From: Candidatus Zhuqueibacterota bacterium
GTDB lineage: Bacteria; Zhuqueibacterota; QNDG01; JABMRT01
Direction of reading: 5' to 3'
DNA length: 39,435 nt
NCBI GenBank assembly: GCA_013202295.1
Contig: JABMRT010000098.1
Span: 1-39,435 of the forward strand
Part shown: positions 3,532 to 30,213 of the stretch, in pieces
How the letters are laid out: each line of letters starts with the position of its first letter
Numbering within the stretch: the first letter of the stretch is position 1
The notes under the pieces: model-generated
The model's input: only the letters and a program-made list of their open reading frames with translations
The model's database searches: none
Told to the model about the DNA's origin: nothing
Made by a program: the position numbers and the translations under genes

Positions 3532-5316
3532 ATGAAACGGCATCTTTGGATTTGCATTACGGTGTGTATCCTGCTTCTCCTTCTCGCAGGGTGCTCCAAT
3601 CCTAAAATCACAGGCGATCACAAAGTTTGGCATCCACTCACGCTCACATTTAAAGGCCCATCACTGTCCGAGAAGGGTGAGGAGAACCCTTTCCTGGATT
3701 ATTGCTTGATGGTTCGATTTTCCAATGGCGACAGGGTTTACGATGTCCCAGGCTATTTTGCCGCAGATGGCAAGGCGGGTGAATCCGGAGCAACAAGTGG
3801 TAACAAATGGCGCGTGCATTTTACACCGGATGCAGCAGGAGAGTGGTCCTATCTCGCGTCATTCAGAAAAGGTGAAGCAATCGCTGTCTCGGAAGATCCA
3901 ATTGCCGGTGATCCGGTACCCCTCGACAGTGCAGCAGGTGTCTTTCAAATTGATCTGAATGACAAAGATGATCCTGGATTTTATTCCAAAGGCCGGCTTG
4001 AGGTTAAGGGTGGGCACTTCCTCCGCTTCGCCGGAACAGGCGAACCGTTTCTCAAAGGCGGAGCAGACAGTCCCGAGAACTTTCTGGCCTTTCATGAATT
4101 TGATCAAACCCCGCCATCACATCAATACAATCCGCATGTGAAGGATTGGAAACCGGGCGATCCGCTTTGGCACAAGGAAAAGGGCAAAGGGATTATTGGA
4201 GCACTGAATTATCTTGCCTCAAAGGGTTTGAATACAGTGTATATGATTACTATGAATGTGTATGGCGATGGCAAGGATGTCTGGCCGTGGGTGGCGCCTC
4301 ATGAACGGCTCCGTTATGATTGCAGTAAGCTCGATCAGTGGGAGATTGTGTTTTCGCACATGGATCGCTTGGGGTTGATGATCCACATAGTGACACAGGA
4401 AACGGAAAATGAGCTGCTGCTCGACAATGGATATACAGACATCCAGCGGAAGTTGTACTATCGCGAACTAATTGCCCGATTTGGTCATCATCTTGGTATC
4501 ACATGGAATCTCGGTGAGGAAAACGGTCCGGCTGATTTCTCACCCTCCGGTCAAACCGATCAAATGCGCAAGGATATGGCTGCGGCGATTAAGTCCATTG
4601 ATCCCTATGATCATCCGGTGGTTGTGCACACCCATGCGGCTCAGAAATACAGAGATCTGATCCTGCAGGAACTGTTGGGATATGCCCACATTGACGGGCC
4701 ATCCCTGCAGATTGATGATCCTAGAAACGTGCATCGGTTTACCAGACAATGGATTCAATCCTCAGATAAAGCGGGGAAGCCCTGGATCTGTTTTCTCGAT
4801 GAAATCGGTCATTACACCACGGGCGTGATGCCGGATGCCGATGATCCCGATCATGACGATGTTCGCAAATACGCATTGTGGGGTAATCTGACCGCTGGCG
4901 GCGCGGGATGCGAATGGTATTTTGGATACAAATATCCCCACGCAGATCTGACCTGCGAGGACTGGCGCACACGGGATGCCATGTGGGATCAGACGCGAAT
5001 CGCGATTGAGTTCTTCCAGGTAAACCTGCCCTATGCAGAAATGAAACCGGCTGATACGATCGTTTCAGATCGATCTGCCTGGTGCCTTGCCAAAGAACGC
5101 GAAGCCTATCTGATCTATCTGAGAGAGGGTGGAACCACGAAGCTCAATTTGCGTAATGATCAGGGCATGTATCGCGTGCAGTGGTTTGATCCTAAAAAGG
5201 GCGGCGACCTTCAAGTGGGTACGGTTTATGAGATTGCTGGTTCGGGATGGAAATCGATTGGTTACGCTCCCTCAGATCGAAATAAGGATTGGGCGGTGCT
5301 TGTAAAAAGGCAATAA
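3532..5316 (+). CDS. DUF5060-type glycoside hydrolase lipoprotein
   Basis: This 594-residue protein has a lipoprotein signal ending LAGC (Cys21). The N-terminal part (about 30 to 150) looks like the DUF5060 beta-sandwich, with a W-x-V-x-F-TPD-x-x-GEWSY signature. A barrel-type catalytic part spans about 150 to 480, and the C-terminal end resembles the putative collagen-binding domain found in the same family. Candidate catalytic acids are Glu329/Glu330 in NLGEENG and Glu424 in FLDEIGHY; this is inference from barrel glycosidase logic. Family members are surface or periplasmic glycosidases of poorly known substrate. AGAGGT lies five bases before the ATG. With the dockerin protein it suggests polysaccharide use by this organism. 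Confidence 0.8.
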   Translation: MKRHLWICITVCILLLLLAGCSNPKITGDHKVWHPLTLTFKGPSLSEKGEENPFLDYCLMVRFSNGDRVYDVPGYFAADGKAGESGATSGNKWRVHFTPDAAGEWSYLASFRKGEAIAVSEDPIAGDPVPLDSAAGVFQIDLNDKDDPGFYSKGRLEVKGGHFLRFAGTGEPFLKGGADSPENFLAFHEFDQTPPSHQYNPHVKDWKPGDPLWHKEKGKGIIGALNYLASKGLNTVYMITMNVYGDGKDVWPWVAPHERLRYDCSKLDQWEIVFSHMDRLGLMIHIVTQETENELLLDNGYTDIQRKLYYRELIARFGHHLGITWNLGEENGPADFSPSGQTDQMRKDMAAAIKSIDPYDHPVVVHTHAAQKYRDLILQELLGYAHIDGPSLQIDDPRNVHRFTRQWIQSSDKAGKPWICFLDEIGHYTTGVMPDADDPDHDDVRKYALWGNLTAGGAGCEWYFGYKYPHADLTCEDWRTRDAMWDQTRIAIEFFQVNLPYAEMKPADTIVSDRSAWCLAKEREAYLIYLREGGTTKLNLRNDQGMYRVQWFDPKKGGDLQVGTVYEIAGSGWKSIGYAPSDRNKDWAVLVKRQ

Positions 5317-5324
5317 AAGATTAA

Positions 5325-5396
5325 TCCGCCTACGCTAAAGAGCAGCTACGGCGAGACAAGTCCACCTACGCTAAAGAGCAGCTACGGCGAGACAAG
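5325..5396 (+). repeat. tandem pair of a 36-bp interspersed palindromic element
   Basis: Two copies of 36 bases (5325-5360 and 5361-5396) follow each other and differ at a single base (TCCGCC against TCCACC). Each has the form TCCGCC-TACGCT-AAAGAGC-AGCTACGGCG, able to fold as a hairpin with a small internal loop, and ends in GAGACAAG. Related copies occur at 11095-11128 and 11985-12020. The whole stretch 5317-5655 has no gene: after the repeat and a purine-rich tract at 5397-5430 nothing is recognisable up to the next start. Confidence 0.85.
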
Positions 5397-29382: not shown

Positions 29383-29403
29383 TCTGCTCATACGGAGTGT
29401 TTT

Positions 29404-30213
29404 ATGAATTATGAATTAGCCACAGGATTTAAGGAAAAACAAACCATCCTTCAATCGTATGGCGGGTCGTTGGCAGATGTGCTCCTCCTTTTAAAACGGA
29501 TCGAAGATCTCCAGCCCGATGCTCTTGTGACAAGAGGATCGGAGTTAAAAATCATGAATTATTCACCAGGGCGTTTTTTGGTGAGCTGGCAAAATACTGA
29601 ATTTCTCTGTGAGTTAAGTGGCGAAGGTGAAACGGCTTCTCTGCGATTGCTGGATATTGCACAATACGTCGAGATGCCACAATTCTCACATGTGCTTCCA
29701 CAGAAAGATCCTAGAATGCGCGATGAAATAAATCCACATAACAATCTGGAGATAAATCCTTTGCTGAACACAGATTTGAATCCCCATGTCAATGTGGATC
29801 TAAATCCCTGTGTCAACACTGACCTGAATCCGAAAGTGAATTCTGATTTGAATCCTATGTGTAATTACTCTATTAACTACAGGCATGATCCTGCTCTCCA
29901 TCCGAGGTCGAATGATCTATTGAATCCCAATATCAATAAATTTATCAATCCCAAACTTAATCGGTTGTTCGATGGACTCTTTGTCTTTGATCTCAACAAC
30001 GATCAAATCGAATTCACAGTAAAGGCAAATGAGCAGGTGACTCTATATTTTGATGATGAAATGGAGTTTATTGCGATGGGTGTTCACAATCAATCCGGTG
30101 GGGAAACCTTGTTCGATCTCGAATTCGATTGGACCGGATTTACTGTACCTGATGGTCAGGGTGGGTACCTTCGCTTTGATCTGGAGGCCGAGTGGAACGG
30201 GTATCTTGTGTAG
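29404..30213 (+). CDS. octapeptide-repeat protein of unknown function
   Basis: I do not recognise this 269-residue protein. Its clear feature is residues 109 to 188: ten consecutive eight-residue units, most of the form [IL]NPxxNxD (for example LNPHVNVD, LNPCVNTD, LNPKVNSD). The seventh unit is diverged (INYRHDPA) and the eighth is LHPRSNDL. At DNA level the 24-base units are quite different, so the pattern seems kept by protein selection. An N-terminal part (1 to 108) has a helix LADVLLLLKRIEDL, and the C-terminal part (189 to 269) is acidic and beta-rich. There is no signal peptide. GGAGTG precedes the ATG. It follows the deacetylase gene by 21 bases, so the two may be coexpressed. Confidence 0.7.
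   Translation: MNYELATGFKEKQTILQSYGGSLADVLLLLKRIEDLQPDALVTRGSELKIMNYSPGRFLVSWQNTEFLCELSGEGETASLRLLDIAQYVEMPQFSHVLPQKDPRMRDEINPHNNLEINPLLNTDLNPHVNVDLNPCVNTDLNPKVNSDLNPMCNYSINYRHDPALHPRSNDLLNPNINKFINPKLNRLFDGLFVFDLNNDQIEFTVKANEQVTLYFDDEMEFIAMGVHNQSGGETLFDLEFDWTGFTVPDGQGGYLRFDLEAEWNGYLV

Follow-up and report, generated by a model that had tools for sequence, protein, structure and literature searches.

A conserved octapeptide array followed by a predicted beta-flower-like domain in a previously unnamed, rare and mobile family of bacterial proteins

The contig JABMRT010000098.1 of a Candidatus Zhuqueibacterota bacterium, analysed here over its whole stretch of 39,435 nucleotides (the window), encodes a protein with a run of eight-residue units of the form [IL]NPxxNxD, which raises the question of what this protein is and what such an array might do. 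The gene is a 269-codon open frame (29404-30213, + strand) encoding a protein of 269 amino acids, P0001, with a Shine-Dalgarno-like GGAG read from the sequence 6 bases 5' of the ATG (29394-29397, + strand) and a GC content of 42% compared with 47% in the window. It is flanked by a histone-deacetylase-family gene and a fumarase subunit gene, with fatty-acid genes around them; these neighbours are core genes, and no mobile element, attC site or defence gene was seen near it. The adjacency to the deacetylase gene remarked on in the preliminary description of this DNA holds in the window but is not conserved, the deacetylase neighbourhood of relatives being different. Elsewhere in the window, two 36-base tandem copies (97% match) lie at 5325-5396, just 3' of the gene at 3532-5316. 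Neither P0001 nor its repeat matched an entry in Pfam, NCBIfam, PHROG, PADLOC or the PDB, in agreement with the earlier impression that the family was unrecognised.

The array was first delineated as exactly ten octapeptides spanning residues 109-188 (29728-29967), a division that holds. Alignment with homologues added KDPRMRDE (residues 101-108) as a further first unit, so that the periodicity is real but the array comprises eleven octapeptides rather than ten, covering residues 101-188 (29704-29967, + strand). Within these residues the lag-8 identity is 34, as opposed to no more than 22 at any lag from 2 to 16 in 20,000 shuffles. The 24-base DNA units have a mean identity of only 47%, and the conserved proline is encoded by all four of its codons; recent slippage is for these reasons an unlikely origin, as had been proposed from the divergence of the DNA units. 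Two consecutive units, INYRHDPA and LHPRSNDL (units 8 and 9; 29872-29919, + strand), are irregular, and among the long arrays that of P0001 is the most irregular overall, with an inter-unit protein identity of 0.36 compared with 0.51-0.82 in the homologues measured.

Searches beyond the window identified eleven homologues, from Enterobacteriaceae, Marinobacteraceae, Betaproteobacteria, Planctomycetota and one prophage. A tblastn search of plasmids returned a protein from an Enterobacter hormaechei IncC plasmid that aligns without gaps to residues 100-266 of P0001 (30% identity over 167 residues). Scanning genome contigs with a profile yielded five homologues (Enterobacter genomosp. O, Marinobacter pelagius, a Planctomycetes MAG, a Betaproteobacteria MAG and Pseudoduganella), and whole-genome searches located homologues in genomes G407, G540, G845 and G1505. 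One further homologue, in a provirus, was recovered by searching IMG/VR for a DNA pattern of four units in a row; a control scan of viral sequences at the wrong period (23 bases) gave 7 matches as against 59 with the correct period, almost all of which were other repeats. Several candidates were rejected. Plasmid matches in Staphylococcus, Borrelia, Monoglobus and Pseudoalteromonas, and the matches in Erwinia and Chimaeribacter, were simple repeats, unrelated Pro/Asn-rich proteins or unannotated frames; repeat-only matches in G056, G062, G075, G081 and G308 were simple repeats, mostly with stops or outside an open frame and all lacking the C-terminal domain described below; and a match of the family profile to a pyridoxal kinase (PDB 6su9, E 8e-15) was a tetrapeptide low-complexity artefact. 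On a viral contig, a frame at L045:13371-13919 (+ strand) contains [IL]NPNSRxx about 17 times, lacks that domain and may encode a different repeat protein.

The family is rare as well as previously unnamed. P0001 is its sole copy in its own genome and across the phylum (1 of 82 genomes), true members occurred in four of about 1,550 genomes from five other samples (beyond the sample centres), and none was found in E. coli genomes or phage records. A distribution this patchy indicates horizontal transfer.

With the homologues in hand, the properties of the repeat could be separated from those of P0001. The consensus of approximately 110 units is I-N-P-(K/N/R)-(L/I)-(N/T)-S-S, or INPx(L)[NT]SS, with Asn2 and Pro3 conserved in 91% and 96% of units, respectively. 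At position 6, Asn (49%) and Thr (40%) are the main residues; at position 8, Ser makes up 69% and Asp 4%, so the Asp often seen at position 8 in P0001 is restricted to that copy. These frequencies bear on the suggestion that regularly spaced Asn and Asp side-chains form a ladder that binds metal ions. P0001 by itself, with its Asn2, Asn6 and Asp8, would suit such a ladder, but across the family alignment neither position 6 nor position 8 holds a fixed Asn or Asp ligand; since the position-8 Asp is peculiar to P0001, we dropped the metal ladder as a family trait and regard it as very improbable.

The eight-residue register, on the other hand, is a family trait. We looked among the homologues for loss of the periodicity and found it kept, and a comparison of copy number over the 12 proteins (P0001 included) gave 11 units in seven, 10 in two, and 8, 5 and 3 in the remaining ones. 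Between relatives, the repeat has a dN/dS of 0.05-0.15 (0.054/0.988, 0.073/0.808 and 0.038/0.263), with 0.15 for the Enterobacter pair and 0.05-0.09 for each of these against the Marinobacteraceae copy. Because these ratios are low, the repeat is translated and constrained; it is under purifying selection between relatives and is more than filler. The shared register and the dN/dS values bear out the earlier proposal that the repeat is old and kept at the protein level. Each lineage has its own flavour of unit (LTSS, INSS, YNSS or VTYS, and xNxD in P0001), and therefore units inside one protein evolved together. Unit-by-unit orthology is clear between close relatives (p 0.0001) and not significant between P0001 and distant homologues (p 0.05-0.76, the units of locus L087 being one residue out of register). 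The INY of unit 8 in P0001 recurs at unit 8 in an Enterobacter homologue and in one Marinobacteraceae homologue, which, given the lack of significant orthology at this distance, is no proof of positional descent.

How the octapeptides fold is less clear. Ice-nucleation proteins are also built of eight-residue, Ser/Thr-rich units, which are able to pair into 16-residue turns, and the octapeptides could by analogy form a regular solenoid, such as a beta-helix with two units per turn, that serves as a stiff rod or as a face for binding surfaces. The strict period is consistent with this, as are the 16-residue alternation of LTNS and LTSS seen in the provirus copy, a usual count of 11, steadier than a loose linker would be expected to show, and purifying selection that in some pairs is stronger on the repeat than on the C-terminal domain. 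However, the consensus differs from that of ice-nucleation proteins, two homologues have only 3-5 units, and AlphaFold2 gave no beta-helix: in the models of both P0001 and the Marinobacter homologue the repeat region lacked strands, with a pLDDT near 28 (25-36 across the two models), in runs based on shallow alignments (seven aligned family members for P0001). The solenoid put forward in the preliminary description thus found no regular structure behind it in either run, and we consider it unlikely.

The same models revealed a domain of about 80 residues directly after the repeat that had previously been overlooked (residues 189-269; 29968-30210, + strand), referred to here as the head. With the same seven family members aligned, residues 193-268 of P0001 were modelled as eight strands arranged in four hairpins (pLDDT 83-90), and the head of the Marinobacter homologue has the identical topology (pLDDT 85-94). 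In the P0001 model, petal 1 (residues 193-207; 29980-30024, + strand) consists of strands 193-195 and 201-207, petal 2 (residues 212-228; 30037-30087, + strand) of strands 212-217 and 222-228, petal 3 (residues 234-249; 30103-30150, + strand) of strands 234-238 and 243-249 with the motif DWTG at its tip, and petal 4 (residues 255-268; 30166-30207, + strand) of strands 255-259 and 264-268 with EWNG at its tip. The predicted architecture is beta-flower-like. The 4-fold beta-flower family (Pfam Bflower, PF21784; clan CL0395, shared with the Tubby C-terminal domain) is likewise characterised by eight short strands forming four hairpins of about 20 residues with [DNEQ]xxG at the hairpin tips, a motif described for beta-flowers in PMC10584680. 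The 11 head domains contain 48 [DNEQ]xxG motifs compared with 19.3 expected (shuffle maximum 31), although in P0001 only petals 3 and 4 have one at the tip.

Comparisons at the level of profile and fold point in the same direction more faintly. Bflower was the Pfam family most often matched by isolated head domains (3 of 10), and the head of the L110 protein alone scored 28.1 bits, above the gathering cut-off of 25, whereas the whole protein scored 16.9; it is the only family member to exceed the cut-off. Profile-profile alignment placed the petals in register with those of Bflower domains at low probability (8%, E 0.004), and Foldseek gave a weak match to 1zxu, a Tubby-like structure that has been compared with the beta-flower fold (PMC10584680), with no PDB fold match reaching E 0.001. 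The head of P0001 had no Bflower match at the 25-bit cut-off, and because it failed this score test we have kept P0001 out of PF21784. Besides most of the family scoring below the cut-off, the head differs from PF21784 in lacking the central C-terminal helix and in being preceded by the octapeptide array, which none of 16 Bflower loci from the G087 family showed.

Beta-flower proteins were named in 2023 from predicted structures, in a paper that assigns them no tested function (PMC10584680). They include proteins with lipoprotein motifs, and their fold has been likened to that of Tubby, relatives of which bind phosphoinositides or scramble phospholipids (PMC10584680). The lipoprotein motifs and the Tubby comparison would accord with a protein exported or displayed on the surface, with its beta-flower in contact with lipid or cell wall and no part in defence, as would the apparent signal peptides, recognised by eye, of three homologues (L089, L110 and L143). 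The signal-less forms, however, would then have to have lost the peptide or use another export route, and these are the majority: 9 of the 12 proteins start without one, among them P0001, for which this absence had been recorded at the outset. Cytoplasmic defence genes also adjoin several of the family loci, and we judge an exclusively exported role rather unlikely. Directly upstream of the exported L110 member is a SUKH-type (SMI1/KNR4) immunity-like frame (L110:6701-7018, - strand).

The N-termini of the family vary more widely than this. Most homologues begin at a conserved IPxSRNP immediately before the repeat. P0001 instead has an N-terminal domain (residues 1-100; 29404-29703, + strand), modelled with medium confidence as two helices followed by strands (pLDDT up to 74), for which no relative was found. 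Two long forms, from Marinobacter (L087) and Planctomycetota (L146), have in common an N-terminal domain of about 100 residues (30% identity) that is not detectably related to that of P0001. In both loci the long form is the second gene of a conserved two-gene operon (L087:5324-6516 and L146:691-1598), the first gene of which encodes a small membrane-type protein with 61% identity between gammaproteobacterium and planctomycete and overlaps the long-form gene by 4 bases (ATGA). Neither operon protein matched Pfam or PADLOC.

This conserved pairing speaks for a toxin-type two-gene system, in which the long form would combine a RelE-like N-terminal domain, the repeat and the head, with the small upstream protein as partner or effector. 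The helix-helix-strand-strand-strand order in the L087 model and a ParE toxin at rank 9 in the Foldseek list of P0001 would fit. Yet the resemblance of the long-form N-terminal domain to the RelE/ParE superfamily is weak and topological only, with no sequence match to RelE or any other family, and that domain was modelled poorly (pLDDT below 50). The domain is absent from most homologues, P0001 has neither a detectable relative of it nor the partner gene beside it, and a toxin-type system appears to us distinctly doubtful.

The genomic settings of the relatives are mobile in character. Two of the 11 homologues are integron cassettes. In L088, attC sites flank the family gene on both sides; in L143, a cassette array with a DHFR gene and short ORFs has every ORF followed by an attC-like inverted repeat (sites read by eye from the sequence and then folded). 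The latter, at L143:3800-9500, is an integron-like array in an Enterobacteriaceae-family genome, and several of its short ORFs are uncharacterised. Recent work describes integrons as reservoirs of defence genes (PMC12409362), and these two homologues likewise lie between attC sites, but a defence role for the family is putative and the P0001 gene, with no attC nearby, is not a cassette. The provirus copy sits at the very edge of the provirus as its first gene, beside what we take to be a P2-type portal gene. Two further observations concern such regions: the cassette preceding the family gene in L088 (L088:1100-1340) encodes a small protein with a repeat of its own (TTPELVQIAAA), so that two attC-separated repeat proteins stand consecutively, and L112:4343-9086 has the look of a mobile island, the family gene there standing between a group II intron-type reverse transcriptase directly upstream and a downstream RelE/HTH fusion.

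Defence genes recur beside the relatives. A gene for AbiV (abortive infection; HEPN, PF18728) lies directly downstream in both Enterobacter loci, inside a common 1463-bp segment, and a retron with PtuA is also near the IncC plasmid copy. In L090, an AAA ATPase close to PADLOC NsnB lies 21 bp downstream of the family gene; in L088, a PDC-S06 ATPase lies beyond an attC, and the two genes are therefore separate cassettes. The family protein itself is no AbiV, most family loci have no AbiV, and no PADLOC model matched the proteins of P0001, L087, L090 and L146. The AbiV and AAA ATPase neighbours suggest a sensor or regulator role. Since they were noted locus by locus without a matched background rate, we put the defence step forward as a hypothesis, and the three apparent signal peptides fit poorly with a cytoplasmic sensor.

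Taken together, we favour, at somewhat less than even confidence, a rare and horizontally spread accessory protein made of a stalk and a head, in which the head would bind a ligand and serve a distinct effector as its sensor or regulator, probably for phage defence. The stalk would be the NP-octapeptide run, usually of 11 units and held under selection, and its regular Pro-Asn array would hold off the head, a small four-hairpin beta-flower or Tubby-like domain, which most likely recognises a ligand, either a lipid surface or a partner protein. The place of action may be set by the N-terminus, which is missing in some forms and in others consists of a signal peptide or of an additional domain of about 100 residues; the output would come from the neighbouring gene. 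Of this picture, the data establish the repeat with its conserved register, the purifying selection, the order of domains and the mobile surroundings of relatives, whereas ligand binding, the stalk and the defence role are inferred. A role of the family in phage defence is plausible. The broader proposition, a class of mobile phage-defence components with an NP-octapeptide rod of set length, a beta-flower sensor head and effectors that vary by host (AbiV, AAA ATPases, the small membrane protein), strikes us as rather improbable. The family nevertheless presents a simple, strongly conserved octapeptide that current prediction cannot fold, and its small, mobile genes with predicted beta-flower-like heads, beside recognisable effectors, together with the conserved two-gene operon of the long form, make its function directly testable in E. 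coli.
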